From Trileptium ribeirensis (lineage: Eukaryota; Nematoda; Enoplea; Enoplida; Thoracostomopsidae), in assembly GCA_030248225.1 (NCBI GenBank), contig JASANE010017677.1, positions 53,497 to 117,496 of the forward strand: a DNA stretch of 64,000 nt. The letters are read 5' to 3'. This document shows positions 14,487 to 30,741 of the stretch, piece after piece. The position numbers were made by a program, and so were the translations under genes. The first letter of the stretch is position 1, and each line of letters opens with the position of its first letter. The notes beneath the pieces were generated by a model. It was given only the letters and a program-made list of their open reading frames with translations, ran no database searches and was not told the origin of the DNA.

Positions 14487-14492
14487 CTTAGA
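14487..14492. repeat. Polinton target site duplication, left
   Basis: CTTAGA, identical to 30742-30747. Six bases is the standard duplication length for Maverick/Polinton integration. Confidence 0.93.
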
Positions 14493-14558
14493 AGTAGATA
14501 AAAAAGGCTGGTTTTACCCCCCCCCCACACGGTGGTGGGGGAAGTGGGATGACAGATG
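14493..14558 (+). repeat. Polinton terminal inverted repeat, left
   Basis: Begins AGTAGATAAAAAAGGCT, then a C-run and GGTGGTGGGGGAAGTGG, and ends GACAGATG. It matches the reverse complement of 30679-30741 with a few substitutions and a C-run length difference. Similarity stops abruptly after GACAGATG; in the right end TATATATATACCCCACAC follows. Confidence 0.93.
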
Positions 14559-15035
14559 ACTATTGCTAAATCCATTTATTGTGATAAACTAATTTTGTCC
14601 CACCAGTTGTAGAGCGCATTTTGCTGAAATTAAGTCAACCGAGAGTGTTTCGGCAACAGCACTACCTCAAGTATAATTATTATATATTTACAAGCTATCA
14701 AACCAACATCACTTCATTTTGTTTATAATATTAGATTTGGAACACACTTTTTCGACTAGCATAAAATTGACTAGTATATAATACAAGTGGTCAAGCTTAG
14801 TCGAAATTCCATGTAGGTTTCGTCATCGTCATTTAACCATATGCACATCAACGTCTATATATGTTTAATATGACATTTTTTTTGCTTAAACAACATCATA
14901 ATGATCCAAACGTCATTGATACCTCTTAGGAAATAGCATTATTGGTGACTACACCTCCAATTCCAAACAGAACGGTGCATGGTGATTAGAGTCTCATTAT
15001 ACCCAATGTGAGCACTCAAATATATATCTCTACAT
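14559..15035. other. Polinton left arm, non-coding
   Basis: AT-rich, no gene seen. It ends with CTCTACAT (15028-15035), the target duplication of the hAT element. Confidence 0.6.
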
Positions 15036-16217
15036 CAGGGAATAACCGGAACCAAAATTTACCGGAACCGGAACCAGCAACCGGAACCGTCCATTTAAAC
15101 CGGATCCGGAACCGGAACCGGAACCTGGTCTTCGAAATTTATATATAGTAAAACAGATGATGGAAGAAATGAAGGTATAGTGGATTTAAAATGCATTAAA
15201 AATAACTTTTACATTAAACTTAAGGTTTTGCGATGGTATTATTGCCTTTCTGAAACTTTAAAGAGACTGATGAAGCTAATAATGTTTATTTATCGATCAA
15301 ATATGTCGATTTTTGGACACCCAGAGCAAAAATGCCTTCCACTATACACCATTGCATACACTGCGTCAAATCGAATATGCTTACAAAGCTTGGAGCATAG
15401 AATACACACTTTCGCTCTGTCTCCAGTCGCCTCCCTTTACTACACATACGTTTGTTGTATGTTCTTCTGTAGGAAACTTAAAATTATTGGTTTATATGAT
15501 TCTAAGAGAAAATAATAGATAGAAGGTAATTTTCTGATCAGTGGTCAGAGACACTGTTTAGGCTAGCGTTGACCAAACAGTGCCCGTCAGTTAGATCATA
15601 ATGATGATAACTTTCTAATCAGAATGCTATAAATGAGACACACTGTGATGCTGCTCGCACAGTTTCAATAAATACAGTTCATTGACAAGAAAGCAGTTTC
15701 TAGCTGCGTTGCAGATAACGTTAGTTTACTTCAATTTATACTGATTTATCAAGTTTACGAGCGCACTGGCGGGTGCCTGACGCAATTTATGTTAGCCAAG
15801 CATACCCTAAGTACTTCTGCGTAAGCCATACTCTGTTACCGAGTTGGACCGGTTTAATTCAAACGTATCCAACAGACTTCTGGATGTGTAAAATAGCTGC
15901 TACAAGCATTGACCTGGCTTTGATTTAACAAACTCCTGCAGGTTATTATGAAAAATTCCTGCTCAAATTATGTGACCTACTTGCGTTTTACACGGCAAAT
16001 TGGTTAGTTAATCTTTTCTTTTGCTTTGTTGTATTGGAGCTTGATCATTGTATAATATATATTACATATGTTTGGATTGCAGGATAAAGCAAAAACGTGG
16101 AAAATTTCAAACAAAATTTTTAAACCGGAATTCCGGTTCCGGTATGGTTTTTGCCCTTTGCCGGAACCGGAACACGATTTTCGCCGGAACCGGAACCGGA
16201 ATTCCGGTTACTCCCTG
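15036..16217. mobile_element. Non-autonomous hAT-type transposon nested in the Polinton
   Basis: The ends are CAGGGAATAACCGGAACC (left) and the complement of CAGGGAGTAACCGGAATTCC (right). Both sides carry the same 8-bp sequence CTCTACAT (15028-15035 and 16218-16225). Terminal CAGGG and an 8-bp target duplication are hAT hallmarks. Subterminal CCGGAA repeats in both orientations (15045-15126 and 16123-16208) look like transposase-binding repeats. The 1,182-bp interior has no transposase-like ORF, so it must be mobilised in trans. The intact duplication shows it inserted after the Polinton and has not moved. Confidence 0.9.
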
Positions 16218-16225
16218 CTCTACAT

Positions 16226-16550
16226 CTATCTTTAGCGTTCTCCTATGGAAATGATGTATATCATATTCCAAGCATATATACCAAAATAACTGGTAAATTG
16301 AGCTTTTCGTTGTTCGCAAAAATGGAAAAATGATGTCATACAATTTTTAGTTTCAAACTTGTGTTCTGGTAGGTGATTCAACCAATTTGAAAATATTTGA
16401 CACAACACACCATATATAAACACACACACTAGTAGTTCCAGTTTTCATGGAACTATATATATTGCGAGTCGTTGAATAATGTATACCCCACACAAATAAC
16501 CACATGTGGGGTATATATATATATATTTCGGTTGCGACATATTCTTAAAG
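16226..16550. other. Polinton left arm, non-coding, with palindromic GTGGGG-TATA sites
   Basis: AT-rich sequence ending in two opposed copies of a GTGGGGTATA box: TATACCCCACAC at 16486-16497 (reads leftward) and TGTGGGGTATATATAT from 16505 (reads rightward). Together they form an imperfect palindrome around 16500. Confidence 0.55.
16505..16527 (+). promoter_or_regulatory. GTGGGG-TATA promoter candidate for the BECR-like gene
   Basis: TGTGGGG followed by a run of TA repeats, 24-46 nt before the ATG at 16551. The same box plus TATA occurs before the 190-aa gene, before NADAR-TBP and near the right end of the element. Confidence 0.55.
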
Positions 16551-16820
16551 ATGTTCATAACCCCACACGTATTTGAAAAACATGGTTCATCAGGGGATGG
16601 ATCATATTTTTATGTTTCACAATATAAAATTATTAAATTAATTAATAAAACTATTAACAAACCTGATAAAACCGTGATTAGTAATAATAACCGGGTGGTG
16701 GTGGAGAGGCGGTTTGAAAACATTATAAGAAACTGTCACGAATCTGGAGATACTGATCGAATCCGGGTTGTGATGGATAAGCGTCGCAGTGTTGTCATTA
16801 CTGCATATCCTGTGGGGTGA
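16551..16820 (+). CDS. BECR-type nuclease-like protein (89 aa)
   Basis: The small protein has H6, K10-H11-G12, a G-S-Y-F stretch (17-20), R48-V-V, and near the end R70-I-R-V-V-M-D and V-I-T-A-Y-P (82-87). This order, H...KHG then I-R-V-V-x-D...V-I-T-A-Y-P, is like the BECR (barnase/EndoU/colicin E5-D/RelE) ribonuclease domains known from phage and bacterial polymorphic-toxin proteins. The function is inferred from this pattern only, and activity is unknown. An upstream in-frame GTG lies inside the TATA tract, so I chose the ATG at 16551, 24 nt after it. It and the next gene are the only Polinton genes on the plus strand. It might be a conflict or host-control factor, or a fragment of one. Confidence 0.5.
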   Translation: MFITPHVFEKHGSSGDGSYFYVSQYKIIKLINKTINKPDKTVISNNNRVVVERRFENIIRNCHESGDTDRIRVVMDKRRSVVITAYPVG

Positions 16821-16899
16821 ATTTCACTTATGTGGGGTTGATATATGGCTTGTGGGGGCTGCATTTTACTAGTGTGGGGCCTGTGGGGTTGATATATGA
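16811..16899 (+). promoter_or_regulatory. Cluster of GTGGGG boxes with two GATATATG TATA elements
   Basis: Five TGTGGGG-type boxes lie in under 90 bp (near 16811, 16831, 16850, 16872 and 16881). Two of them continue as TTGATATATG. The cluster overlaps the stop of the BECR-like gene and precedes the acidic-protein gene. It is a likely promoter region with repeated factor-binding sites. Confidence 0.5.
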
Positions 16900-16934
16900 T
16901 ACTGTATGACATTGGTTATTTAATCAAGACTTCA

Positions 16935-17510
16935 ATGGTTTTGGATTCACTTTACACATCAAGTTTCATCATGGCTTTCACACAGTCTGCTGGTAATTCG
17001 GATTCGCTCAATGTATTAGTCGACAATGACATGTTCAATTCACTGTTCAACAACGACGACTCACTGTTCAACGATGCGCTGCTTGGTGGCGACAATTCAC
17101 TTCTCAACGTCAGCGACGGCCGTGACAATCCAACAACCAGCGACAAAGTTGAAGATCAACTCGACAACGACCTCAATCGACGAGCGGACGCGCAACGGCT
17201 GGCGGATATGGTCTACGAGCAGATCGATTTCGATCGCTGCGAAGATCCGCACCTGATCATCGAGAACGAATTCTGGAGTGTCCTCCGTTCGATCATCTGC
17301 ATCGATGTGATGCAGGTGCAGAAGTTGGTTTGGGATCGCATCTTCCAACAATTACAACAAGGTGAACGAGTACTCGAGAAGCTCCATAAACAGTACAAAG
17401 ACGAATGCGACGCATGTTATTACGAGGATCCTGGGCAACGTCTTCTCTTTCAAGCTGATGGCTGCATGCATTCTACTGCAAGCAGGACATTAAAGATGCT
17501 TGTAAAATGA
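16935..17510 (+). CDS. Uncharacterised acidic Polinton protein (about 191 aa)
   Basis: I do not recognise this gene. The open frame starts at 16896, but that ATG is part of the GATATATG TATA element. The next in-frame ATGs are 16935 and 16971, and I use 16935. The N-terminal third is Asn/Asp/Leu-rich (N-D-D-S-L-F-N-D type). The middle is helical and charged, with R-R-A-D-A-Q-R-L-A-D. The end contains C-D-A-C ... D-G-C-M-H, a possible C-x2-C-x15-C-x-H metal site. Base use is more GC-rich than neighbouring Polinton genes. It is followed by AATAAA at 17601 and converges on the minus-strand cluster. Confidence 0.7.
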   Translation: MVLDSLYTSSFIMAFTQSAGNSDSLNVLVDNDMFNSLFNNDDSLFNDALLGGDNSLLNVSDGRDNPTTSDKVEDQLDNDLNRRADAQRLADMVYEQIDFDRCEDPHLIIENEFWSVLRSIICIDVMQVQKLVWDRIFQQLQQGERVLEKLHKQYKDECDACYYEDPGQRLLFQADGCMHSTASRTLKMLVK

Positions 17511-17600
17511 TAAACATTGAATACAATGAAAAGTTGTACAATATTATTCGTGAAAAATTGAGTTGTTATAACGATATGTATTAATGTTATATTTTTTCTT

Positions 17601-17606
17601 AATAAA
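17601..17606 (+). terminator. Poly(A) signal of the plus-strand genes
   Basis: AATAAA, 90 nt after the stop of the acidic-protein gene. Confidence 0.6.
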
Positions 17607-17802
17607 GTGTTAAAACTGAAACATTCTAAGCAGGTAAACTTCGATACTTGCTCAGCATGTCCCAGCTACACTGATTGGAACCTCTGTTCCCTGTATACCG
17701 CCACATAAGTTGAAATATCAAAATTACGATGTTTGAAAAAACGTTTCAGCCGGACCAAGGGCCTCATCAGACGGTTATAGGCTACCGTTACGTTTTTTTC
17801 AT

Positions 17803-17808
17803 TTTATT
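17803..17808 (-). terminator. Poly(A) signal of the minus-strand cluster
   Basis: TTTATT on the plus strand, AATAAA on the minus strand, 28 nt after the stop of the 96-aa gene. Confidence 0.6.
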
Positions 17809-17835
17809 CAATACAAACAATGATAAATTATACAA

Positions 17836-18126
17836 TCAATTACAATTTATACATTTTACAATATCACAGTTATATTCAACAAAAATACAAGGATATATCA
17901 ATGACAGTTTATACATTGAATGTTCAAATGATTGTCCTTTCTTCATTTCTTTCTTCACAAATTCCGCAGCTGTGAGCACCGCTGTACGTTTTCGTATTAG
18001 CGCCATCAGCGTTTCTTCTTCCTGCGAACGTCCATCTATGAAGTCACCACTAGCCTCACACTGACGATAAAATTCATCCACCTTTGACTGCCAATACGCA
18101 ATCTCATCTTGAAGATAGTCATCCAT
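17836..18126 (-). CDS. Uncharacterised 96-aa Polinton protein, start coupled to upstream stop
   Basis: Not recognised. It begins M-D-D-Y-L-Q-D-E-I-A-Y-W. It is charged and helix-rich for about 65 residues (a K-K-E-M-K-K-G segment in the middle) and has a Cys-containing tail ending C-I-N-C-N. An earlier in-frame ATG at 18186 would overlap 68 nt of the upstream gene. I prefer ATG 18126, which overlaps the TGA of the 159-aa gene by 8 nt. The same kind of tight junction as NADAR/TBP suggests both are made from one transcript by reinitiation. Last gene of the minus-strand cluster. Confidence 0.65.
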   Translation of the reverse strand: MDDYLQDEIAYWQSKVDEFYRQCEASGDFIDGRSQEEETLMALIRKRTAVLTAAEFVKKEMKKGQSFEHSMYKLSLIYPCIFVEYNCDIVKCINCN

Positions 18127-18598
18127 CGTAAGCTTGAAGAATGTTGATTCCAACGTATCGCTGACGAAGTACTTTATCCAAATCATACGTTGCTAGATGC
18201 TTCATAAATCTAGCTCCCATGTAGCAATTACTAAATGTGTATCCACGATAGATACCAACAGCTCGCGCAAGTATCAATCCGTAATGGTATGGTATTGATA
18301 GGTTGTTGAATATATGTTCAAAGACGTCAAAGAGATATACCATTTTCGAGCTCCATTTAAGGTTTTGCGGTGGTTTGAGATGAACGTTGAAATGTAGGTT
18401 GGATAAAGATTTATTTATCCAAATTATATCATAGCCTTTTGCAGGATTCCACTTTTCGCTTGACCCATTTGTCCAATCATCGTAGCACAGAGTTTTGTTT
18501 TCTTGCTTTGACGGGTTGTTATTTAAGCATAATAAAACAGTTTCAACAATAGTAGCTATAAATAGTGCACAACATAATAAAATTATGCGTTTATCCAT
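18119..18598 (-). CDS. Membrane-anchored Polinton protein (159 aa)
   Basis: The N-terminus is M-D-K-R followed by a hydrophobic helix of about 20 residues (I5 to L24, with C9-C10). This looks like a signal anchor. The remainder (25-159) is a soluble domain with W residues and conserved-looking aromatic stretches. I do not recognise the family. A longer frame opens at 18700 inside the major capsid gene, but the shared promoter element (18623-18633) lies 25 nt before the ATG at 18598, which decides this start. The position after the capsid genes and the anchor suggest a virion or membrane-associated late product (inference). Confidence 0.72.
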   Translation of the reverse strand: MDKRIILLCCALFIATIVETVLLCLNNNPSKQENKTLCYDDWTNGSSEKWNPAKGYDIIWINKSLSNLHFNVHLKPPQNLKWSSKMVYLFDVFEHIFNNLSIPYHYGLILARAVGIYRGYTFSNCYMGARFMKHLATYDLDKVLRQRYVGINILQAYDG

Positions 18599-18622
18599 GG
18601 TTGTTATACAATGGGATTCATT

Positions 18623-18633
18623 CCTTTTAAGAA
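18623..18633 (-). promoter_or_regulatory. TTCTTAAAAGG promoter element of the 159-aa gene
   Basis: Minus-strand copy of the shared element, with one A fewer. Its 5' end is 35 nt before the ATG at 18598. The TAA inside it (18627-18629) is the stop codon of the major capsid gene. Confidence 0.7.
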
Positions 18634-19913
18634 ATTTTATTCCAAGACACTTCCCTTTTTTCGTTAATATGTAGTTCAGAGGTAAACTCTCCCATTGCAA
18701 ATATCACAATTGCATGTTTCAACTCCTCTACAAAATCTATTGATAGTCTTACCTGTCCATCTGATGGGTTTGAAATATAATTACAATCACTACTGTGATC
18801 TTTACTTAAATCTATACAAAATATTTGATATCCTGCACCATATCTAAACCCAACTTCAGTTAGTCCCAAATTTTCATTTCTACCATTTAACGCGTATAAT
18901 GTATTGTAAAACAGTCTCATATTATTACCAGCTTTACACGGTAGGGAGACATTACAAGGGTATCTATCATCATTCATAAATAATGTAAAGCTATTCATAT
19001 CAGGTAGATTTAGCTTAAACAAGTTTGATTTTGCTGCACCTGTGTACGCTTCCTGTGTTATTCCCCAAATATATATTCTTCGAGGTAACACACCATCAAA
19101 AATTGTCCAATCTACGTTTTGTAGACCTTTATTTACAGACAATGTATATAATTTGTATCTTATCGCGGGAAGTATAACTGCCCCAATTCTATTTTGAATT
19201 TCAAGAGCTTCTTTTGTTAATCGTGCTTTAGGTATATAGAGTTTGAAATCATTGATACGAATTTGAAATTTATTAGCTGGTTCATGCAGCAGTATTAGAG
19301 ATGGTGTACTTCGCGTAAATTTAAATTCTAACCTTGTTTTTGGTGGTAGGTATTTAGGAGTTAAATGTGCATCGATAATTAGTGGAAAATAAAGCTCACA
19401 TTTTTGAGACACCGCAGTCAACGCGTTTCTATAAATGGAACCTTCATTATCTTCAAGATCATCAAACATATATGTCTGATCAGGTTTGTAAAGACATCCT
19501 GCTAAATATTGTTTTCTTTGTTCCTCACTCATATGTAACATATACAATATGTATGTCATCCAGGGGTAATGTTTTTGGTTGTAGGTTATCGGTTCTCCAT
19601 TTATTTTCATCTCAACTGATGAAAAGAGTCCATACCCGAACATATTACATGGTGCAAATTTAAGAGTTGTATCTTTAATCTCCTTACCATCACCTTTCAG
19701 TATTTGAAATTCAATATATACAAATATTTCAGATAAATCAATCAAATCAAATGCACTTTCACCAATTTTAAAACGAAACGAGTCATCTGTATCAGTGCTC
19801 GGTAAAGTTGTTTCACAAGCGACTTCAATCATTTGTGTTGACATGATTGAGTCTTGAACAGGGTACTTATCACCCTGCCAATTAAGTTTTTCGACGCCGC
19901 ATACGTTTGACAT
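18627..19913 (-). CDS. Polinton major capsid protein, double jelly-roll (428 aa)
   Basis: The length and landmarks fit the Polinton/adintovirus hexon-like capsid protein. These are an N-terminal D-S-F-R-F-K-I-G-E-S then D-L-I-D-L-S-E-I-F-V-Y-I-E-F region (about 45-70), F-G-Y-G-L-F-S-S-V-E-M-K-I-N-G (about 92-106) with Y-P-W-M-T-Y, and a second half with L-P-R-R-I-Y-I-W-G (about 278-286). It would form trimeric capsomers of an icosahedral virion. This gene, the minor capsid protein and the ATPase are the morphogenesis module that marks Polintons as virus-like. It is intact. The ATG at 19913 lies 38 nt after the promoter element at 19951-19942 and inside the 3' end of the basic-peptide gene (32-nt overlap). 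It ends in Ser-stop within the next promoter element. Confidence 0.93.
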   Translation of the reverse strand: MSNVCGVEKLNWQGDKYPVQDSIMSTQMIEVACETTLPSTDTDDSFRFKIGESAFDLIDLSEIFVYIEFQILKGDGKEIKDTTLKFAPCNMFGYGLFSSVEMKINGEPITYNQKHYPWMTYILYMLHMSEEQRKQYLAGCLYKPDQTYMFDDLEDNEGSIYRNALTAVSQKCELYFPLIIDAHLTPKYLPPKTRLEFKFTRSTPSLILLHEPANKFQIRINDFKLYIPKARLTKEALEIQNRIGAVILPAIRYKLYTLSVNKGLQNVDWTIFDGVLPRRIYIWGITQEAYTGAAKSNLFKLNLPDMNSFTLFMNDDRYPCNVSLPCKAGNNMRLFYNTLYALNGRNENLGLTEVGFRYGAGYQIFCIDLSKDHSSDCNYISNPSDGQVRLSIDFVEELKHAIVIFAMGEFTSELHINEKREVSWNKIS

Positions 19914-20019
19914 TTTTCTTTTTCTTTGCTGGTTTACGATGCTTTTTAAGACTTTTCTTCTTCTTAATGATTGGAATAGCTTTTAGAAGCTTTCTCGAAT
20001 TAAAACATAGAGGTAGCAT
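19882..20019 (-). CDS. Small very basic peptide, core/condensing type (45 aa)
   Basis: A short frame between the minor and major capsid genes. It starts M-L-P-L-C-F-N-S-R-K and ends V-K-R-M-R-R-R-K-T. About half of all residues are Lys or Arg, including K-K-K-K and K-K-K-K-N. It has its own upstream promoter element (20052-20063), 44 nt before the ATG, and its coding sequence contains the promoter element of the major capsid gene (S-L-K-K codons). Composition, size and position resemble the DNA-condensing core peptides of adenovirus-like virions, so I infer a role in genome packaging or nuclear targeting of the capsid. No sequence family can be asserted at this length. Confidence 0.62.
   Translation of the reverse strand: MLPLCFNSRKLLKAIPIIKKKKSLKKHRKPAKKKKNVKRMRRRKT
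19942..19951 (-). promoter_or_regulatory. TCTTAAAAAG promoter element of the major capsid gene
   Basis: Minus-strand copy lying inside the coding sequence of the basic peptide. Its 5' end is 38 nt before the capsid ATG. Confidence 0.65.
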
Positions 20020-20051
20020 TTTTTAAACTTAGATTTATTAAATTTATTCAT

Positions 20052-20063
20052 CCTTTTTAAGAA
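20052..20063 (-). promoter_or_regulatory. TTCTTAAAAAGG promoter element of the basic-peptide gene
   Basis: Exact copy of the consensus, 44 nt before the ATG at 20019. It contains the stop TAA (20057-20059) of the minor capsid gene. Confidence 0.72.
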
Positions 20064-20677
20064 CTAAACCATAACCTCAATATCATCTTTGCGTTTGGAA
20101 AAAACTCAACAGTTTGAAATTCTGAATCAAGCACATCAAATCGGAAAAACTTTAACATGCAACTGTTTAACTCTAGGTTCATTGTATTTTTCACATTAGA
20201 TGAAATTACGTGTAGTAGTGGTTTATATCTTCCGTTTACTATTCGTTCTTTCACAAAAGAACTCATTATAAACGTGGGTTTGTTATGTTGCATGTTGACA
20301 CATTTGTTTCCAACATGTTTACCGTTTTTCAGGTGTAAAGCGTTGAATCCAAATAATTGTTGTATTTCCGGAAATATCTTAATTTCTGCCTTACCTAACA
20401 TATATACACTAACACGATCACAGATGGGGTCAACTGTAAACTCAATGTCTTGACTAAATGTGTTTAGGTAAGATAACAAATTGTTGATATTGTAGTAGCC
20501 TTTATCAACAGTAAATCGTTTCCAAGATTTATTTGTGAAATATTCAACAATACCACCCTCAATATTTTTGTATTTGGTGGGAAGTTGAACATCCAGTACT
20601 TTAACTTTTGTAGCGCAAAATGCTGTCGGAAACTCAACAACCGGTTCGCTCAGATTGCAAACAACTACAACTTCCAT
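20057..20677 (-). CDS. Polinton minor capsid (penton-type) protein (206 aa)
   Basis: The size and pattern fit the single jelly-roll penton protein of Polintons: a beta-rich start (M-E-V-V-V-V-C-N-L-S-E), F-P-T-A-F then V-K-V-L-D-V-Q-L-P, and K-G-Y-Y-N-I-N-N-L-L-S-Y-L-N (about 59-72), the hallmark strand-helix of this family. L-F-G-F-N follows near the middle and a final R-L-W-F-S-S. It would fill the five-fold vertices of the capsid. It lies directly between the TBP gene and the basic peptide. The ATG is 20 nt after the TBP stop. It is intact and ends in Ser-stop that is part of the next promoter element. Confidence 0.85.
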   Translation of the reverse strand: MEVVVVCNLSEPVVEFPTAFCATKVKVLDVQLPTKYKNIEGGIVEYFTNKSWKRFTVDKGYYNINNLLSYLNTFSQDIEFTVDPICDRVSVYMLGKAEIKIFPEIQQLFGFNALHLKNGKHVGNKCVNMQHNKPTFIMSSFVKERIVNGRYKPLLHVISSNVKNTMNLELNSCMLKFFRFDVLDSEFQTVEFFPNAKMILRLWFSS

Positions 20678-20696
20678 GATTGTTGATTACATTTTA

Positions 20697-21215
20697 TTAA
20701 AGTCTTTTAAGGATATTATATACAGTATTGCAAGACAAATAGAAATCATTTATACACTTACAACCAGTTATAACTACATTCCCACTCCCATAAATCAAAC
20801 ACACACCCTTCTCAATCTTAAGTTTCATACTATTATGCAGCTCGGTTTCATACATTACAGTGTATTTGGATCTCAGACTTTCATAGACGAAAGGTAAATT
20901 TAAGTTAAATCTACATTTCAACATTCCAACAACATTTTTAAGTTGTACGTCAAATTTTCGAATGCATGAATATCCCAATTCGTTTAATTTTTCGTAAACT
21001 ATATATAAAATTAATTTTGCTTCATCTTCTGACTTCACCCCCACTACTACTAGCTTTCCATTGGAAAACAGTAAAATCGTTCCCCTCGGTTTGAATTTCC
21101 ATATACCACCATTAAATCGTAAAATATCAAAGTCAAAATTATCAAGTACACAAGATAGATATAACAAATCAACGTTGCATCCAATGTCTGATGTTATTGT
21201 CATATTTGTTATCAT
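20697..21215 (-). CDS. TATA-binding protein (TBP) encoded by the Polinton (172 aa)
   Basis: The two direct repeats of a TBP core are clear. Repeat 1: T-N-M-T-I-T-S-D-I-G-C-N-V-D-L (3-17), I-L-R-F (31-34), T-I-L-L-F-S-N-G-K-L-V-V-V-G-V-K-S-E (46-63). Repeat 2: K-N-V-V-G (93-97), Y-E-T-E-L (122-126), L-I-Y-G-S-G-N-V-V-I-T-G-C-K (140-153). The two DNA-contact Asn (N4, N94) and the first intercalating Phe pair (F34, F50) are kept. The second pair is changed (H127, Y142). The frame is open up to 21461, but the ATG at 21215 overlaps the NADAR stop as ATGA and gives exactly a TBP core. TBP nucleates transcription by binding the promoter minor groove; here it probably serves the element's own promoters (inference). 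TBP is not among the usual Polinton genes I know. Confidence 0.88.
   Translation of the reverse strand: MITNMTITSDIGCNVDLLYLSCVLDNFDFDILRFNGGIWKFKPRGTILLFSNGKLVVVGVKSEDEAKLILYIVYEKLNELGYSCIRKFDVQLKNVVGMLKCRFNLNLPFVYESLRSKYTVMYETELHNSMKLKIEKGVCLIYGSGNVVITGCKCINDFYLSCNTVYNILKRL
20703..20713 (-). promoter_or_regulatory. Weak promoter element of the minor capsid gene
   Basis: TCCTTAAAAGA on the minus strand, a variant of the shared element, in the last codons of the TBP gene. Its 5' end is 36 nt before the ATG at 20677, the same distance as other copies. Confidence 0.5.
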
Positions 21216-21721
21216 TTGTTTTCTTCTCGAATTTCCATCCATAACCCACCCAACTTGTTTAGTCCCTTCCATTCGCTCATGTCTCGACTTTTTACATCGA
21301 ACACGCTTTTTCCGATTCCCCAGTACAGGTCCCATTCCGACGCTTCCGCTATTATCGCATTTTCTGTTCCCATTACTGCAGCTCGTACGTGAGGTAGTTG
21401 ATGAAATTTCGCTTTCATCCCCACTTTCATAACGTTTACAGCGCGATCGTTTGCTATCCATTCCGCAATATCGAAATTTGCGACCTGTTGTCCAAGTCGC
21501 TTATGTATTGATGGTTTATAAGAGTTCATAATATGATGATATGTGATTTCATCGTTGAAATAACGAGCCTTTTCGCTTTGATACCATTGTTCAACGCAGT
21601 TGTAGGTTACTCCATTAATAGTTATTTTAGCAATATTAAAATTACTAAATAAACTCCATCCAGATCGGAACAAAACAAGTGGTTTCCCATCAGTGCTAAC
21701 ACAATACTTTGTATGATCCAT
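21212..21721 (-). CDS. NADAR-domain (YbiA-like) protein (169 aa)
   Basis: The whole NADAR pattern is present: F25-S-N-F28, I-N-G-V-T-Y (35-40), V-E-Q-W-Y-Q-S-E-K-A (43-52), W88, K-A-K-F (103-106), E-A-S (126-128), W-G-I-G (134-137) and G-L-N-K-L-G-G-L-W-M-E-I-R (153-165). NADAR enzymes are N-glycosidases acting on ADP-ribose-type and related glycosidic bonds. Members remove ADP-ribose from modified guanine, and others act on riboflavin intermediates. They occur in phage-bacterium conflict loci. In a Polinton it may act on host or self ADP-ribosylation (inference). The ATG at 21721 is preceded by a GTGGGG-TATA promoter. A 15-codon frame starts 22 nt earlier out of frame. The stop overlaps the TBP start as ATGA, so the two form one unit. 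Confidence 0.88.
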   Translation of the reverse strand: MDHTKYCVSTDGKPLVLFRSGWSLFSNFNIAKITINGVTYNCVEQWYQSEKARYFNDEITYHHIMNSYKPSIHKRLGQQVANFDIAEWIANDRAVNVMKVGMKAKFHQLPHVRAAVMGTENAIIAEASEWDLYWGIGKSVFDVKSRDMSEWKGLNKLGGLWMEIREENK

Positions 21722-21752
21722 TTTCAATAATGATGATATCCATGTTTGTGAA

Positions 21753-21780
21753 CCTTTATATATATTAGTAAATACCCCAC
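21753..21780 (-). promoter_or_regulatory. GTGGGG plus TATATATAAAGG promoter of NADAR-TBP
   Basis: On the minus strand GTGGGGTATT (21780-21771) is followed by ATATATATAAAGG ending near 21753, 32 nt before the NADAR ATG. It looks like an ordinary TATA box and unlike the TTCTTAAAAAGG element of the structural genes. Confidence 0.6.
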
Positions 21781-21799
21781 ATGAATATGATTGGTTGGT

Positions 21800-22219
21800 T
21801 TACCCCCACAAAGTTCTCCATTTAGATTTCTGCTCAGCTACTTTACCTTTTCTACCTCTTCCAAATGCTGACAAAGGAACTCCTCTAAGAAGTGATTCAA
21901 ATTTATCAGAGTCAAGAGGTCTTGGTGGTGAAAAGTTGATATCTGAGACAAAATACTTTACCAAATCATAAATATTTGAACCAACAGTCTTATCCGGGTA
22001 AATTATATTGTTATTATCATTTAGTTTTAAATCTTTAATATTGTTTAACATTAGTTTAGCTTTAGATCGTAAATTTTTAGGAAACATTAGGGATAAATCT
22101 GGTTTTTCTCTGGTTTCGTAAACAGTCACTTCATTTTTTATTGGTTCTTTATCTTGCAATCCTCCATTCTTTATAATATCCAACCAGCTAACAGGTACCA
22201 CTGCCATCTTACGTGCCAT
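21800..22219 (-). CDS. Uncharacterised 139-aa Polinton protein
   Basis: Not recognised by family. It begins M-A-R-K-M-A-V-V-P-V-S-W-L-D. The middle is rich in Lys/Asp/Asn (L-K-L-N-D-N-N-N). The C-terminal third has D-L-V-K-Y-F-V-S-D (about 86-94) then L-R-G-V-P-L-S-A-F-G-R-G-R-K-G-K and a final K-W-R-T-L-W-G. The basic Gly-Arg stretch suggests nucleic-acid or capsid contact. Its ATG overlaps the end of the 91-aa gene by 11 nt, so the two are probably co-transcribed. It may correspond to one of the short capsid-accessory proteins that vary among Polintons (inference). Confidence 0.7.
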   Translation of the reverse strand: MARKMAVVPVSWLDIIKNGGLQDKEPIKNEVTVYETREKPDLSLMFPKNLRSKAKLMLNNIKDLKLNDNNNIIYPDKTVGSNIYDLVKYFVSDINFSPPRPLDSDKFESLLRGVPLSAFGRGRKGKVAEQKSKWRTLWG

Positions 22220-22484
22220 AATGTTTATTAAAATAATTAATCAAATGTTTAACCACAGTAGGTTTGAGTAACTTTTTCTTTTTAGAAATTGAAATACGTT
22301 TGCTTGCAATACTTTTAAGAACTTTTCGCTTCGTTTTGGTTTTTTGTATGATATTATATGCAATTTCTGTAAATGTGTTAAGTAAAGACTGAGGTGCAAC
22401 TTTAATTACAGCAGAGACAACTTTAGCTGACGATCCCTCAAGAAACTGCAGTGCTGTTAGATTACGTTCAACAGTTCGAGACAT
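22209..22484 (-). CDS. Conserved small Polinton structural/core-type protein (91 aa)
   Basis: It begins M-S-R-T-V-E-R-N-L-T-A-L-Q-F-L and ends with lysine-rich segments (K-R-I-S-I-S-K-K-K-K-L-L-K). The order E-R-N-L-x-x-L-Q-x-L ... A-V-I-K ... L-L-N-T ... K-R-x-S-x-x-K-K-K-L-L matches a short protein I know from many invertebrate Polintons and adinto-like elements, usually next to the capsid genes; its exact role is not settled. An amphipathic first half and a basic tail suggest a virion core or membrane-active peptide. The exact promoter consensus lies 36 nt before its ATG and contains the stop of the ATPase gene. Confidence 0.7.
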   Translation of the reverse strand: MSRTVERNLTALQFLEGSSAKVVSAVIKVAPQSLLNTFTEIAYNIIQKTKTKRKVLKSIASKRISISKKKKLLKPTVVKHLINYFNKHYGT

Positions 22485-22508
22485 ATTTATTACATCTAAA
22501 AAATTAAA

Positions 22509-22520
22509 CCTTTTTAAGAA
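22509..22520 (-). promoter_or_regulatory. TTCTTAAAAAGG promoter element of the 91-aa gene
   Basis: Exact consensus on the minus strand, 36 nt before the ATG at 22484. TAA at 22514-22516 inside it is the stop codon closing the ATPase frame. Confidence 0.72.
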
Positions 22521-23245
22521 TAAACAAACATCTGACTGTCATCGGGAAAAATACATTGTCGTACCCTTAGTACACTCTCTGTAGCTGGTTTTAGATCAAG
22601 AAATAGATAACCATACGGTTCCCTTGTTGCTTGCTCAAATGCGCTTGAAAGAAAATCTGGTTTTGAAGGCCACATTTGTCTTCCCAGGGTATGTATCACT
22701 GACTGATCTCAAAAGTTGGGGAACAGAACCATATACTGTGCGTTTCGAGTTATTGTTCGCATGTATTTACCTTCATGATACAAATTCTGTGTAACAAAAA
22801 TTGTGCTTAACTTATTATGACGCATACGGGAAAATGCTGCTGCAAGCTTTTTATCATTTGAGGCCTCAATCATTAAATCGTCCAATACACATAAAACGTG
22901 TCCTGTGCCAGTGGGAAATTCAGAGGGAATACCTTCGTGTAGTTCAAAGTTGGGTATTTTTCTCAACATTTTAGCATATATATCTTGAAAAATACTGTAA
23001 CAGTATAAAATTTTCTCCACCTTTTCATCGAAGTACATGTGTTTAAGTAATTTGTAAATCCAAAGTGTTTTTCCACTTCCAGTTTGACCACTCACAACAC
23101 ATGTGAACGGTAATTCCAAAGGTAAAGGTATTTTATCACAGCTTGACATTGTTTGAGCTGTACAAGTTTTCTTATGTCTATGTAAATGTTGACGAGAAGT
23201 ATAAGATCGTTCACACTTGTTACATACATGATCCATAATTATCAT
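22514..23245 (-). CDS. Polinton packaging ATPase (FtsK/HerA type) with N-terminal zinc finger, interrupted by one in-frame TGA
   Basis: The ATPase would drive genome packaging into the capsid. Residues 8-28 form a zinc finger (C8, C11, H24, C28). Walker A is G53-Q-T-G-S-G-K-T60 and Walker B is V117-L-C-V-L-D-D123. The arginine-containing sensor region F-S-R-M-R-H-N-K (about 138-145) and V-T-Q-N-L follow. At 22709-22711 there is a TGA after F-P-N-F. The same frame then continues with no other break to 22514 and carries the normal family end (L-G-R-Q-M near 22690, E-P-Y-G-Y-L near 22610). So this is a single nonsense codon and not a frameshift. The 178-aa product would keep both Walker motifs but lose about 65 residues. 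The N-terminal finger is unusual for the family. The ATG is 28 nt after the promoter element. Confidence 0.85.
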
Positions 23246-23261
23246 GGATTACATGATTAAA

Positions 23262-23273
23262 CCTTTTTAAGAA
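23262..23273 (-). promoter_or_regulatory. TTCTTAAAAAGG promoter element of the ATPase gene
   Basis: Exact consensus on the minus strand; the 5' end is 28 nt before the ATG at 23245. Confidence 0.72.
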
Positions 23274-23279
23274 CTTTAA

Positions 23280-23575
23280 CACCACCATATTGTACCCTGT
23301 GTATCCCTATTCTGTACCCCTACGGGTACTTATTGTACCCCTATATACCCTACATTTATCAATGTGTACCCCTATATTGTACCCTGTGCACCCGTATTCT
23401 GTACCCCTATGGTTACGTATTGTACCCATATATCCCCTACATTTACCACTGTATACTCCTGTTGTACCCCTATTCTGTACCCCTACGGGTACCTATTGTA
23501 CCCATATATCCCCCTACATTTACCACTTGTACTAATTCCATACGACGTATGTACCCGTATATCCCTTACATTTAA
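23280..23575. repeat. TACCCC-rich minisatellite between integrase and ATPase
   Basis: Units of about 77-88 bp, roughly two and a half to three copies. Each contains ATTCTGTACCCCTA, then TATTGTACCC.TATAT.CCC and TACATTTA.CA. GTACCC alone occurs more than ten times. Plus-strand open frames through it (Y-P-Y-I-P-Y type) are repeat shadows. The minus strand is GGGTA-rich. It follows the end of the integrase frame directly, and may have replaced the last part of the chromodomain. Confidence 0.8.
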
Positions 23576-23598
23576 TGGTAACCCCTACAAGCCTCATG

Positions 23599-24618
23599 TC
23601 ATGAATTCATTGATTTAGGGTATCCAAGCCACTTTACAAGGTACTCTGTACCCCTTTTGTCCTTGCGTAAAATTTTCTCAATTTTATATGAATCACCCAC
23701 TACTTTAACGTTTTGCAGCTCTTGCTTATAAAATCTTCCCAATATAGTTTCCTTATTTGCATCTTCAAGCTCGTAAACTGGAGGATTGAATGGTAGTTGT
23801 TTACTTATCGTAAACACTTCACGTGACCACAACTGGTTAAATCCACGTTCAAAAGGAAGCCGTTCAATGGAAACACGTACAATATCGCCTAGTTGAAACT
23901 TATATCGAACATCCACATCTTGCGCTGGAAATAACTTTTCCCGAATTTCATCCTCATTATCAACCTTTGAAGGTGTGAAACCATAACTGTTTTCAGTATT
24001 ATTATAACTTTCTACAAGTGATTGAAGATTATCAATATATCTGCGGGAATTTTTAGATGTTAAAAATTTATAAATTTTCCCCTTCAAAGTACGTATAAAC
24101 CGCTCAGCAATACTTGCTTTTGTTTCCTTATTCTTAGCTGTATAAACATTAATACCCTTTTCCTTACAATAATCATATAACAGGTTATTTACAAACTCTT
24201 TACCGTTATCAGTTTGAAAGTTTTCGGGTCGAGACTGTTCAAATACAGTCTTTAATCCTGTCAAAATGGTGGATGCTAGTTTGTTCTTGACAGGTACAAC
24301 CCAAGCATATTTGGAAAAGCAGTCAATAACAACAAGTAAATATTTTATACCATCATTATATGATGACAAGTTACTCATATCAGCTAAATCGGCCTGAAAT
24401 AAATCATTTAAACCTTTAACAACAGTACGTCTACGCTGAAATCTTAATCTTCTAGGTTTATGTAAAGTATATGTTTCCTGACCGCGAAGCCAGTCTTGAA
24501 CTTCACGAAGTTTAACTTTATGACCACGTTTACGTGCTTCTTTATACAACTTGAGAGCAGTGGAGAAGCTAGCAACATTGGTTGCATCGAAGTAAATTGG
24601 TTTAAGCTGTTCATCCAT
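23599..24618 (-). CDS. Polinton integrase (retroviral type, DDE) with truncated chromodomain (339 aa)
   Basis: The catalytic core carries D77 (F-Q-A-D-L-A-D-M), D137 (Q-T-D-N-G-K-E-F) and E172 (S-I-A-E-R-F-I-R-T-L), the last two 35 residues apart. It would cut and join the element ends and make the 6-bp duplication. Residues 311-339 are the first part of a chromodomain (Y-K-I-E-K-I-L, T-E-Y-L-V-K-W-L-G-Y-P) that would tether it to chromatin. The frame ends with N-S and TGA just where the family normally has a Trp and the last helix. The frame is open to ATG 24639, but that lies only 2 nt from the promoter element. ATG 24618 sits at the usual distance (32 nt) and is chosen. Otherwise intact. 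Confidence 0.9.
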   Translation of the reverse strand: MDEQLKPIYFDATNVASFSTALKLYKEARKRGHKVKLREVQDWLRGQETYTLHKPRRLRFQRRRTVVKGLNDLFQADLADMSNLSSYNDGIKYLLVVIDCFSKYAWVVPVKNKLASTILTGLKTVFEQSRPENFQTDNGKEFVNNLLYDYCKEKGINVYTAKNKETKASIAERFIRTLKGKIYKFLTSKNSRRYIDNLQSLVESYNNTENSYGFTPSKVDNEDEIREKLFPAQDVDVRYKFQLGDIVRVSIERLPFERGFNQLWSREVFTISKQLPFNPPVYELEDANKETILGRFYKQELQNVKVVGDSYKIEKILRKDKRGTEYLVKWLGYPKSMNS

Positions 24619-24640
24619 TTTACAAATACAAAATAACATA

Positions 24641-24650
24641 GCTTTTAAGA
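24641..24650 (-). promoter_or_regulatory. TCTTAAAAGC promoter element of the integrase gene
   Basis: Variant of the shared element; its 5' end is 32 nt before ATG 24618. Confidence 0.6.
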
Positions 24651-24734
24651 CATTCCTGCATGTTTAACATCTTTAAGATGCGCAGGTAGTCTATATCAGC
24701 TCAAAGAAAAGAAAGCATGTGAAATCATATATCA

Positions 24735-24740
24735 TTTATT
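24735..24740 (-). terminator. Poly(A) signal of the polymerase gene
   Basis: AATAAA on the minus strand, 3 nt after the polymerase stop (TAA at 24744-24746). Confidence 0.55.
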
Positions 24741-24743
24741 GAA

Positions 24744-27700
24744 TTAAACATCAATATCAATACTCATAAGCAAATCATCATCATCATTATCATTACACAA
24801 ATCAAGTAATAGATCCATAAAATCATCATCACTAACAGAATATGTATTGAAATGTCCATACGCATACGAAGAAATTCCATCATCCAAAATATACCGTTTA
24901 TCGTCATATGTAGATAAGCTCGTCTTATTAAGTGTCACTGTATTTAACACATGTTTATCACTGCGTATCAAGTTCATTTTATGCTTCATGTTACTGCCAC
25001 TGAACAATATATTACAATAGTCCTGGTGACGAATATCTTTCTTTACAACTGTCTTTTTGATACCCTTTGCACGTTTCTTTTCCACACCACCACACTTTAT
25101 ACTATACATTTTCGATCTGAGTCCAACAAATTCTTCGATGGGTTTACCAGCGGTCTCGTCTTTCATTTTACCAAGCACCTTTTTATTCACCGTTGAGAAG
25201 AGGGGGTGATCAGAGGGGTAATCGCTGGTATCGAAGAAAGATGAATTTGCTGCCATGTCGTCGTAAATGTCTTTGGTTTCAACCAAATAACACAGTGAAT
25301 CGGTATCGGTAAATAGTAATTTACATTTACCATCATACAATGGTTTCATATAATTGTAATGGAAGTTATACATAAGGGACTTTGAAAGTTCCAAAACTGT
25401 AAACCCAACATAAATGGGTTTACACAGTTTGACAGTTTTGCGGTGCATTTTAACCGCAACAAGGTCTTCGTTAAATATTGAAGACATGGAGTAACGGGGG
25501 TTCGCCACCAACTTTTCAAATTTATGTTCATTAGTTATTAGTTTAATGTCAACATAAGCTCGTACATTCTCCATGGTTTTACCGAACACAGCGTTATTAA
25601 GAAGTTTATACAAGTCTTTCTCGAAATCACTATTAGCATGTTTACGCATTTCGGTATTAAAACTAATATATGGTTCCATCCATTGACACTGGTTGAAGGA
25701 GACGACTCGATGCACTTTTTTAAGTTCCAAACCAAGTGCAAGGTATTGTTGAAGGTTCCGGATATGTACTTTATAATATTGTTTATCGTTTAGATTGGGG
25801 ACCAGTTTTTCAACTGGTGCAGAACGATCTTGTTTGATCGCACTGCAATATGGGGACAGCATTGAATCGGAAATCTTTAAACGTTCGGGAGCTAAAGGGT
25901 AATCGTTGTGAAGGTTGTGGAGATGGTATGGATAGTGTAAGTCCACTTCCAATATATATCCAACATCTCCATTTGCGTTCACTGAATACCAATCGATTAA
26001 ACCGATTTGAGTTTGGGAAAGCCACTTGAAATTGTTGCAGGGTAGCTTTTGTACCATCGACCACCCGTATAAATTGTTTGCGTCGAGGTACATTATATAG
26101 TTGATGAGTTCTTCAGCGTTGTAACCGTCAACGTATGGATTATTCGCCTTTGCATATCGGTGGGATATCACAGAGACGCCGCCTCGAATTCCATCCTCGA
26201 AGAACTGGTACATATCGGGGTCGGAGATGAGATCCAGCTTGACGCCTGTCTTCATAAGACAAGCGTCCCATGCGAAGCTGGGGAGGGTGATGTAATGAGC
26301 GGGGTCTAGACGGAATTTGTCTAGACAAAACAAACGAAAGTTTTCAAAGACGTCGCGAAGGAGCAGGACGTCGGTTTTCAGGTATAGGTCGTGGTATTGA
26401 CCTAGGTTGTGAACGTTCATCTCCCGCCAAACAGCTTGCGCTTGTTGATAATCTTCGTCGCCAATACCACTTTCGGTGAGACTTGAATAAAAGTCTCGTT
26501 GAGGAGGTAGCGATGTTTCTGCAAATCGATCGACGGAATCCATATATTCGTAAGGGTATATACCCTTACGCAGCATTAAATTGAGTTTATCTCCAAACAC
26601 ATGCTGCATTGCCTGGAACCGATCGACTCCAGTTTTCTTCAAATTGTCGACCAGCGTTTGAAGAGATGACGGAAGGAACTGGATGGTGTCTATGAATCGA
26701 ATTTTCCATCCAACTTCATCTTCAGCTGTATCATCGTTACCGAGGATGAAATCAATACCATCGACGTTTTTATCCCAGCATTCGTCATCGTTGTCATCGT
26801 CAACGTCTACTTCTTCCATTATGAAAGGATTTTCGCCTTCGCTGCTCTTCTTGGATTTACGTTTGATGGAAAACGTCATATAGTCTTCCATCCCTTTCGC
26901 AATGCATTCAATCTCTAGGCCCTTTTGTTTACATATAGCACCAAGTTCTTGCATTATGCGGTGTCCGTCGTATCGACGTAAATTATGAGATAATACAGTT
27001 ACTTCGCGATTGAGTGTATACCCAATATTACATTGTGCGTGAACAGCGCCTCGATATCGACCACAAAAATGACAGTGGTCCCTAGCTTTATCGTCAGGAT
27101 CCATGGAATTATTACATATATAACATTCTAAAGTATTATTGAATTCACATTGTTCATTATTTGTTAGATTGAGAGGTTTAGTTGGAAACTTTTGAAATTG
27201 TTCCGATAATTCAATTACATTATTAAGAAAATGTGTGACGGTATCGTCTCCGCGATATATTGTTGGTTCACTAATTTGGACTTTATCGTTGCAACATCCA
27301 AAACAGTCAATCAGTCCATATCCACAAGGGGTATGACGTTGATATGGATTTGTATATGAAGTAGATGTTGATGGTTCACAAGTGACGACCTTTTCGAGAA
27401 TACACTCGAAATCAGCATATATGACGTATGGGGATCGTTGCATACGTTGAATGTTTGTGAATTGAAGCGTTGAATTGGATGGTGGTGTTTGGATTCGGGA
27501 CGGTTGGTCGTGTCGACAGCGCTGCAAATGTTCGTCCCGTTTAGCTTTACTGTAGCACGGGACGAGACATTTATCACAAAAGAATAGTTTGTTAGTCTTT
27601 CGCCGCTGACGATTCAGCAACGAATCCAAATTGCGAACTAGACAGTAGTGTTCTTTATACAGCAGCAGATGGATGTATTGCGGATGTAGGGATTTAGATA

Positions 27701-28757: not shown

Positions 28758-28758
28758 T

Positions 28759-28793
28759 CTTTTTAAGAGATTCTGAAATAGTTCTTAAAAAGG
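28759..28793. promoter_or_regulatory. Inverted pair of the promoter element before the polymerase gene
   Basis: TCTTAAAAAG on the minus strand (28768-28759) lies almost against the polymerase ATG. TTCTTAAAAAGG on the plus strand (28782-28793) faces the other way. The two arms form a hairpin-capable palindrome with a short loop. The spacing differs from the other genes, and no plus-strand gene follows. It could be a bidirectional or autoregulatory site. Confidence 0.5.
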
Positions 28794-28859
28794 ATATAAG
28801 CACAAAAATAACTGTGGAACAATCTGAACAGACTCAGCGTATATGAAAACTGTTTAACC
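28794..28859. other. Short spacer upstream of the polymerase gene
   Basis: AT-rich spacer between the palindrome and the tandem array. No gene seen. Confidence 0.5.
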
Positions 28860-29950
28860 ACTCTATGATTAGTTGTAAAGTATTTATCAGCTATGTAACC
28901 CAATTGAATAACAACATAAGTAAATTAAGGATAGTTGAATACCTATAGTTACTAATTTTGGTAAATTTTCGACTACTAGGTAAATAGTTATTAACGAATA
29001 ACCAATAAACATATTAGCTATGTAATCATAACATATTATCTAATGAACATGGACTAATTTGAGTAGAAGGTATGAAATCAGGGTAGTTGAAAACCTATAG
29101 CTATAAATTTTTGTTACTTTACTACTATTACTTGAAAAGATATTAAGTTATAGCTTATAAATTATTAGCTATGTAATAATTACATATTAGCTATGTAATA
29201 TAGATTTATTTAAGTAGCAAAAATGAAATCAGAATATCAGAAAACCTATAAGTATAAATTTTAACTACTTTATGACTATTAGTTGAAAAGTTATTGAATT
29301 ATTAGCTATGTAACTAAGCTTCATTAAAAATAAAATGAGCGTGCTCGAAAACATATAGATACGAATTTTTATTACTTTAAGACTGTTATTGAATTATTAG
29401 CTATGTAATTATAACTTATTAGCTATGTAACTTAACTTTATTTAAATTGTAGAAATGAAATAAGCATATCAGAAAATCTATAAGTATGGATTTTTACTAT
29501 TTTATGACTAGTATTTGAAAAGTTATTGCATTATTAGCTATGTAATTATAACTTATTAGCTATGCAACTTAACTTTATTTAAATAGTAAAAATGAAATAA
29601 GCATATCAGAAAACCTATACGTATAAATTTTTACTACTTTATGACTATTATTTGAAAAGTTATTGAATTATTAGCTATGTAATTATAACTTATTAGCTAT
29701 GTAACTTAACTTTATTTAAGCAACAAAAATGAAATGAGAATATCAGAAAACCTATAAGTACAAATTTTTATTAATTTGCTGCTATTGGTTGAAAAGTTAT
29801 TGAATTATTAGCTATGTAATCATAGCTTATTAGCTATGTAACATAGTTTATTTAAGTAGAAAAAATAAAATCAACGTGGTTAGAAACCTAAAGTTATGAA
29901 TTTTGACAGCTTTGCTGCTAATAGTTCAAAAGTTATTAAAGTATATATAG
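28860..29950. repeat. Tandem array of about 137-bp units, TTAGCTATGTAA motif
   Basis: Seven or eight diverged units lie between the polymerase gene and the right terminus. Each unit carries ATTAGCTATGTAA, often twice about 28 bp apart, then TTTATTTAA, AAAATGAAAT.A, ATCAGAAAACCTATA and TTACT.CTTTATGACTATT. The best-kept neighbours start near 29523, 29660 and 29798, which gives the 137-138-bp period. No ORF. It could be a replication, packaging or transcription-control region, or simply a satellite expansion in the element. Confidence 0.85.
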
Positions 29951-30678
29951 CTTTTATATTATTAGTTAGCTTAATTTAAATAGAATAAATGGGATAAGAG
30001 CAGTTGAAAACCCATGGTTATGCATTTGGACAGTTTGCGAGTATGAGATAAGATGTATTACAGTATTATCTATAAATTTTTTAGTTATATAACCGCTCAT
30101 TGGATCACTAAACATATACCCTCTCGATTGGTTAGCAAGAATACATTTACGTTTTTCTATCCACTATAGTATCACACGTGCCTCACACATGTATTAATCC
30201 CCACATGGACACCCTTTCGAAATCATGAAACCATGATTAAATACCTAGATAACCCACAAATCCATGTTTATATTATATATAAGCAGATATGTATATATTA
30301 ATCACTGTGAGAAATGCCTTATTTTCAAAAATACTGATTTGTTGGAAACATAGATATCAAACAGGAAGCAACTACTACCCAAAAGCACGTGTCGGTTTAT
30401 CAACATAAAGTATAAAGTCATGCCACAAATAGTAGTGATTTGTACTACATATGTGGGGATTTGAATACGTAGATGTGTTATTGGTTTAACTACAGATGAT
30501 GTCATTGGAAAAACTATAGCTGGAAACATGTTATCGTAAGTACGACAATCTCAATCGTTGCCTGCTATTATTCGAACTAAATGAATTGTTGCCATGGTGA
30601 TTATTTGTTTATTTTAACATGGAACTGACATATGGCAGCTTAAGTTGACTCATAAGTAATGTGTGGGGTATATATATA
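29951..30678. other. Polinton right arm, non-coding
   Basis: AT-rich. It contains scattered CCCCACATG/CATGTGGGG words (30200, 30450) and a GTGTGGGGTATATATATAC box at 30661-30679 next to the terminal repeat, like the boxes at the left end. No gene is supported. Confidence 0.6.
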
Positions 30679-30741
30679 CATCTGTCACACCACTTCCCCC
30701 ACCACCGTTTGGGGGGGTAAAACAAGCCTTTTTTATCTACT
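30679..30741 (-). repeat. Polinton terminal inverted repeat, right
   Basis: Reverse complement of 14493-14558 with small differences. It ends in TATCTACT at 30741, followed by the CTTAGA duplication. Confidence 0.93.

Follow-up and report, generated by a model that had tools for sequence, protein, structure and literature searches.

The stretch of DNA analysed here (64,000 nucleotides (nt) of contig JASANE010017677.1 from the nematode Trileptium ribeirensis, hereafter the window) contains a Polinton that carries a gene for a TATA-binding protein (TBP), located between a NADAR-domain gene and a minor capsid (penton-like) gene, and a TATA-like box, CTTAAAA, that recurs ahead of its genes. Coordinates are given in Table 1; the names pX, basic91, p139, TM159, p116 and p204 were coined in this analysis.

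A TBP gene inside a Polinton

The TBP reading frame lies on the minus strand (21215 to 20697), the plus strand of the same interval is full of stops, and the TBP ATG at 21215 overlaps the NADAR stop codon (ATGA). An original prediction made from the sequence had described this frame, without stating its strand, as 172 amino acids of bare TBP core with both TBP repeats, and this description is borne out: the Pfam family PF00352 matches the protein in two stretches (E 2.1e-29; 101.6 bits against a cut-off of 22.9), which also excludes a chance open frame. In a phmmer search against PDB sequences, the protein matched Methanocaldococcus TBP (6.1e-19) and yeast TBP (4.6e-18, across residues 3-170, thus spanning both tandem repeats). 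It has the saddle fold of the TBP superfamily, with best structural matches of 8.8e-12 among cellular TBPs and 1.7e-06 (an unnamed protein) or 7.0e-06 (the best named one) among viral proteins, from libraries of different sizes.

The residues singled out in the original prediction (N4, N94, F34, F50 and the string S-x-G-K-x-V-x-x-G-x-K-S-E) are all found. For comparison with yeast TBP we used a numbering map and lists of DNA, TFIIB and TFIIA contacts that, apart from E188 as a TFIIB residue, are presumed. On this basis the window TBP is identical at 8 of the 12 presumed DNA contacts, and its concave DNA-contact side is largely kept. The four phenylalanines that wedge DNA in canonical TBP are not all present: F34 and F50 remain, and the second pair is altered (yeast F190 to H127, F207 to Y142). 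The acidic residues E123 and E125 are retained, so that the 172-residue core shows neither the extra domains nor the acid loss of the herpesvirus type.

Conservation among Polinton copies

We searched the window's own genome (687,459,628 bases in 20,229 contigs) with the TBP profile, and all 150 places scored, out of 975 candidates, were above the cut-off. The best match is the host gene (L009, on C9496), with split exons. With the window TBP protein as query, 16 of the 150 places scored among 780 candidates, the window included, were 98-100% identical. The original prediction had proposed to look for the same neighbour in other Polintons, and within this genome it recurs: at 19 Polinton loci around TBP matches (L010-L028), NADAR adjoins TBP in 17, penton in 16 and at least one of the two in all 19, with a single gene order wherever genes are visible. 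Ten further loci (L029-L038) all have NADAR; TBP is the best label of the frame in eight of them, and in the other two the frame is labelled penton. Starting from the major capsid protein (MCP), at least 73 of 98 scored places have TBP less than 5 kb upstream on the same strand (median 2.07 kb), and pieces of TBP were found at 7 of the 12 places fetched from the remaining 25.

An MCP 100% identical to that of the window, with equal score, is present at two other places (C17226 and C19723). These identical copies indicate that the family was recently active and, judged by their identity, the amplification of the window's Polinton family is very recent. Individual copies depart from the common arrangement. 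NADAR and TBP are both gone in L053, where p139 directly joins penton; L013 and L028 represent a lineage that has NADAR-TBP with no capsid genes found nearby, PolB being the adjoining gene in L013; and in L041 the sequence downstream of the capsid gene is marked by strong repetition of a motif around ACCAATATCAAACTGGAG.

Outside this genome, no relative of the window TBP was found among 30 candidates from a set of 5.8 billion proteins, none of 1673 candidates for MCP was a relative, and scans of viral contigs turned up no relatives. In an alignment search with yeast TBP, the best 120 of 7706 matches were all fungal where named.

Descent and selection

In trees rooted on archaeal TBP, from which frames shorter than 140 amino acids were omitted, the TBPs of host, human and yeast fall outside a single clade that unites the Polinton sequences (support 0.924 with 24 sequences; ultrafast bootstrap (UFBoot) 94 in an enlarged tree of 30 sequences, after three broken or extended frames, L034, L047 and L048, had been dropped). 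Polinton TBPs are 27-33% identical to the host TBP, versus 81% between host and human, and the window TBP is 25-98% identical to the other Polinton copies. The ratio of nonsynonymous to synonymous substitution rates (dN/dS) was measurable in 10 of 12 pairs (0.26, 0.25, 0.12, 0.15, 0.13, 0.09, 0.54, 0.16, 0.38 and 0.27), the other two being saturated. Eight of the ten values fall within 0.09-0.27; the two high ones belong to L016-L019 (dS 0.03) and L011-L022 (dS 0.15). Such low ratios argue that the gene is maintained by selection in the elements, and the sequences indicate that this TBP is an old, selected gene of the Polinton family and not a recent capture.

TATA-like boxes ahead of the element genes

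Of 11 upstream windows (50 nt each) in this stretch, 7 share a 7-mer, a number that never exceeded 5 in 2000 dinucleotide shuffles or in 5000 random sets. The extended form TCTTAAAAAG occurs six times in the 16-kb element and is absent from the other 48 kb, and 11 of the 13 CTTAAAA in the element are on the coding strand. A divergent CTTAAAA (28784-28790, plus strand) lies 17 nt from the PolB box and faces away from PolB; the 2-kb stretch beyond it has no plus-strand ATG frame of 50 or more amino acids.

Across copies, we inspected the 65 nt before integrase, ATPase, basic91, penton, MCP and TM159 (window genes included), with upstream windows placed by alignment to the window proteins and the nearest ATG within 15 codons. 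CTTAAAA was found in 77 of 97 upstream windows, in none on the opposite strand and in one of 97 inside genes, its C mostly 29-44 nt ahead of the ATG. Before other genes it is found in 2 of 27 windows (NADAR), 1 of 19 (p139), 4 of 28 (TBP) and 2 of 12 (p116). Ahead of NADAR, 8 windows out of 27 contain TATATAA, compared with none on the opposite strand and 3 inside the gene; the window element has the canonical-looking TATA box TATATATAAAGG there in place of the element box.

The box differs among TBP clades. In 70-nt windows split by clade, with clade B starts set by hand, clade A (95 windows, 25 loci) has CTTAAAA in 80, CATAAAA in 3 and CATGAAA in none; B1 (10 windows, 3 elements) has CATAAAA in 9, CATGAAA in 1 and CTTAAAA in none; and B2 (14 windows, 5 elements) has CATGAAA in 13 and CTTAAAA in 1. 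In no clade set does the opposite strand contain any of the three boxes. Positions are equivalent (33-44 nt in B1; 34-47 nt in B2, with one at 26), so that the box of the six core genes is mostly 29-47 nt ahead of the start codon. The 3' half of the box is constant (AAAA then A/G) and the 5' half varies (CTTA, CATA, CATG), the clade A box differing from TATAWAWR at positions 1-2 only. Clade B NADAR genes have a CATGAAAAG box, and copies of the L012 type carry a CTTAAAA box that belongs to TBP itself.

TBP residues and box type

The TBP sequences themselves, including a clade B2 protein that scores 99.5 bits against PF00352, differ between clades at the position of the altered phenylalanine. 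Residue 190 is H in 16, Y in 4 and Q in 2 of the 22 clade A sequences, all of which have N191, and all eight clade B sequences have F190-P191, plus W116. F207 is absent from 8 of the 22 clade A sequences, and F99 is present in all 30 sequences. As for the acidic residues, E188 is conserved in 30 of 30 and E186 in 25 of 30, both being present in all 22 of clade A. The TFIIA-contact positions of our presumed list vary among copies and were not used. Residue 191 is taken here to be the proline described for recognition of TATA position 1.

In human TBP, Phe 284/301 wedge the first two TATA base pairs and Phe 193/210 insert between the 7th and 8th (PMC3142196), and a proline favours T at TATA position 1 according to passages of PMC12529657, which also name E188 as a TFIIB residue, with E184 as the other one. 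By this geometry, the changed residues 190-191 would face the changed 5' bases of the box, and the box 5' half and residues 190-191 separate the same clades (A versus B).

Proposed role and alternative explanations

Based on these observations, the Polinton TBP probably acts as the element's own initiation factor, binding the TATA-like boxes before its genes; it is from the boxes that we infer TBP control of the element promoters. In the window and in some other clade A copies, where NADAR-TBP is preceded by a canonical TATA box, host TBP would express NADAR-TBP first. The element TBP would then recruit host TFIIB and RNA polymerase II to the boxes, by analogy with herpesvirus TBPs at the TATT boxes of late genes. 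The changed second repeat (FP to HN at 190-191 in most of clade A) would suit CT in place of TA at TATA positions 1-2; the first repeat keeps its Phe pair and the box its AAAAR. Element genes would thereby follow a promoter code partly separate from that of the host and differing between Polinton lineages. In L012-type and clade B copies, which have their own boxes there, self-activation of NADAR-TBP would be as likely. It is about an even bet that each lineage has a TBP with a co-evolving box (CTTAAAAR, CATAAAA or CATGAAAAG), giving several initiation codes in one nucleus, insulated from host TBP and from each other.

The original prediction had proposed that the element brings its own initiation factor, like a cytoplasmic-style virus. 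Its first part holds, in that the whole family has a lasting, element-encoded TBP and promoter-like boxes of its own; its second part finds no support, as no RNA polymerase or capping family was matched by Pfam in the ten element open reading frames (ORFs) scanned, and the TFIIB-contact residues kept in clade A point to host RNA polymerase II in the nucleus. We therefore regard the TBP as a predicted nuclear, element-specific initiation factor dependent on host RNA polymerase II.

That the gene is a recent capture from the host, or a passenger in a single insertion, was the case that the original prediction had set against itself; a host TBP with introns and an intronless element copy would be expected from it, yet about 30% identity to host TBP, a diverged clade, purifying selection and the many insertions rule it out for practical purposes. 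Alternatively, the boxes might mark initiators, leaders or gene junctions and be recognised by a reader other than the TBP, for example host factors or another element protein such as the zinc-finger polymerase, with the TBP acting elsewhere. A box mostly 29-47 nt from the ATG would leave nearly no leader, and the boxes after penton, MCP and ATPase include the stop codon of the preceding gene. However, the boxes track gene starts: of the 11 places where a gene ends in the window (ATPase counted once), just 4 have a box, with a start codon following after 33-42 nt in every case, and the PolB box has no gene before it. Together with the resemblance to TATAWAWR, changed at the 5' end, and a box type that varies by element lineage in one host, which a host reader would not explain, this makes the signal explanation rather unlikely.

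The TBP could also be a decoy, sequestering host TFIIB or acting as a competitor of host TBP and in this way lowering transcription of the host, the boxes being weak TATA elements read by host TBP. Both the kept TFIIB-contact residues of clade A and the altered DNA-wedge residues would suit a decoy, but the concave DNA side is largely kept, including F99 in every sequence, and the lineage-specific boxes would be left unexplained, so that we consider it improbable. Use of the TBP fold in replication or packaging, by bending DNA at the element ends, is more improbable still: TBP bends DNA generally (a passage of PMC12529657), but the boxes precede genes, and it would not explain why the acidic residues that face TFIIB persist.

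Several points weigh against a TBP that serves these boxes. The evidence is sequence comparison in one host, in which further TBP paralogues are possible, and includes no TBP-less Polinton as control. TBP is absent at 5 of the 12 fetched MCP places, copies that are truncated or deleted and in which neighbouring genes or parts of them are also gone. The covariation of box and residues 190-191 is a single evolutionary split and cannot alone prove recognition; any other difference between clades A and B separates likewise, and the box changes between B1 and B2 with no change at 190-191. E186 is lost in clade B2. Among the 25 loci of clade A, many are close copies of one another, which inflates the counts, and B1 and B2 comprise three and five elements. 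With 6-mers, 10 of 2000 shuffles attain the observed 7; the 13 plain CTTAAAA of the element are matched by another 13 elsewhere in the window; and a control region at -200 to -135 yields CTTAAAA for 16 windows out of 94, of which 14 belong to MCP, where the region takes in the pX box. TATA-type starts would fall a few bases before the ATG, leaving short leaders, and the PolB box, at 10 nt, would put the start inside the gene. Finally, most copies have no TATATAA before NADAR, hence expression by host TBP first is not general.

Other features of the element

The element has the terminal inverted repeats, 6-bp target duplication, retrovirus-like integrase and A32-type packaging ATPase of a Polinton. 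Its termini, read by eye, are AGTAGATAAAAAAGG at 14493 and 30741, flanked by a perfect CTTAGA duplication, and the terminal repeats are short and imperfect (44 nt at 89%). The original prediction had called these borders intact, which the duplication supports; the element itself is not wholly intact, as the ATPase frame is broken by an in-frame TGA in the window copy. This frame is open in several other copies.

Table 1. Positions of the Polinton, its genes and its boxes in the window.
Feature	Positions	Strand	Basis or remark
Polinton element, 16,249 bp	14493..30741	-	genes mostly minus; AGT-type termini, 6-bp target duplication, gene content
Target-site duplication CTTAGA, left	14487..14492		
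Target-site duplication CTTAGA, right	30742..30747		
Left terminal inverted repeat	14493..14563		short, imperfect
Right terminal inverted repeat	30674..30741		
p204	16896..17510	+	opposite-strand gene; homologue in L025
p116	17836..18186	-	conserved element gene, no assigned function
TM159	18119..18598	-	conserved element gene, no assigned function
CTTAAAA box of TM159	18625..18631	-	
Major capsid protein (MCP)	18627..19913	-	context; sub-threshold Capsid_N 0.067
pX	19882..20019	-	small, very basic pX-like ORF, 45 amino acids; name presumed
CTTAAAA box of MCP	19944..19950	-	
CTTAAAA box of pX	20055..20061	-	
Minor capsid (penton-like)	20057..20677	-	position and homology among copies; no Pfam match
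TATA-binding protein (TBP)	20697..21215	-	172 amino acids; PF00352 match
CTTAAAA box of penton	20705..20711	-	inside TBP 3' end
NADAR-domain gene	21212..21721	-	stop overlaps TBP start; PF08719 5.4e-34
Canonical-looking TATA box	21753..21764	-	43 nt before NADAR ATG
p139	21800..22219	-	conserved element gene
basic91	22209..22484	-	small basic conserved gene
CTTAAAA box of basic91	22512..22518	-	
A32-like packaging ATPase	22514..23245	-	pieces 23245-22709 and 22675-22514; Pox_A32 2.3e-07, 31 bits against 22.8
CTTAAAA box of ATPase	23265..23271	-	
Retrovirus-like integrase	23599..24639	-	chromodomain start; rve 2.3e-11; Chromo 7.6e-05, just under cut-off
CTTAAAA box of integrase	24643..24649	-	
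Polymerase-like frame (PolB)	24744..28757	-	1337 amino acids; N-terminal zinc fingers; zf-C2H2 2.1e-06
CTTAAAA box of DNA polymerase	28761..28767	-	10 nt from ATG

The MCP has no match in PDB, and with Capsid_N below its cut-off the assignment leans on context. The name penton or minor capsid protein is that of the original prediction and is likewise presumptive. PolB is presumably a DNA polymerase, judged by its motifs; no Pfam polymerase model matches the frame, its C-terminal part is without a PDB match, and its PDB matches (the best 60 of 112) are to zinc fingers only. A sub-threshold Endonuclease_7-like patch is also present in this frame. The NADAR domain, which we take to be related to NAD or ADP-ribose, possibly makes the gene beside TBP a counter-defence enzyme. 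Homologues of p204 are strong in L025 (6e-70) and weak in L011 and L022, and p204 itself matches no Pfam family. Pfam gave no adenain-like protease among the ORFs scanned, in an ORF search that was not exhaustive, and an Rfam scan gave no match. In the flank, frames at 61181-63546 (minus strand) resemble what we presume to be retrotransposon integrase and reverse transcriptase.

Comparison with known systems

It is already known, from the sources cited below, that herpesvirus TBPs serve variant boxes and that giant viruses and mirusviruses can carry a TBP gene. In the literature searched (titles, beginnings of abstracts and passages, with subscription papers and Repbase outside the search), we came across no report of a TBP in a Polinton or adintovirus, of a Polinton clade that regularly carries one and has lineage-specific boxes, or of NADAR in either kind of element; the term TBP occurs 0 times in the text available of PMC8097293, PMC10120064, PMC11071308 and PMC12220804. 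General initiation factors usually count as fixed equipment of the host, on which small elements draw. A transposon-like family of 16-kb elements with its own TBP and a position-locked, lineage-varying box would offer a natural series for TBP/box co-evolution, with natural variants at hand for direct binding tests, and would bear on the origin of orthogonal promoters, on virus-like gene control in Polintons and on how the TBPs of herpesviruses, giant viruses and mirusviruses arose.

Among DNA viruses that encode a TBP, Yellowstone Lake phycodnaviruses 1-3 have it together with TFIIB (PMC4602308), 59% of mirusviruses have it (PMC10132985), and TBPs have been described in algal elements of putative mirusvirus origin. 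These viruses have large genomes and other transcription genes, of which none was found in the ten ORFs scanned of the 16-kb Polinton. Mavirus-type virophages, as small Polinton relatives, resemble the present family in having one shared motif before their genes (TCTA, the late promoter of Cafeteria roenbergensis virus (CroV)), which varies by element type (PMC8547959). The Mavirus motif matches the promoter of the helper giant virus, whereas the Polinton supplies its own TBP. TRF1, TRF2/TLF and TBP2 are TBP paralogues that serve separate promoter sets (PMC3142196); they are host genes, in contrast to the mobile-element-encoded Polinton TBP clade.

The predicted system resembles that of beta- and gammaherpesviruses, in which an encoded TBP fold is likewise paired with a variant TATA-like box. 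Epstein-Barr virus (EBV) BcRF1 and the ORF24 proteins of Kaposi's sarcoma-associated herpesvirus (KSHV) and murine herpesvirus 68 (MHV-68) act with host RNA polymerase II at a TATT/TATTWAA box (passages of PMC4893493 and PMC12529657). KSHV ORF24 has domains in addition to the TBP fold and acts together with five other viral activators; it requires all four phenylalanines and lacks the TFIIB-contact acids (PMC12529657). Unlike ORF24, the Polinton protein is a bare core, and its clade A members, 22 sequences in all, are without F190 but retain the acids.
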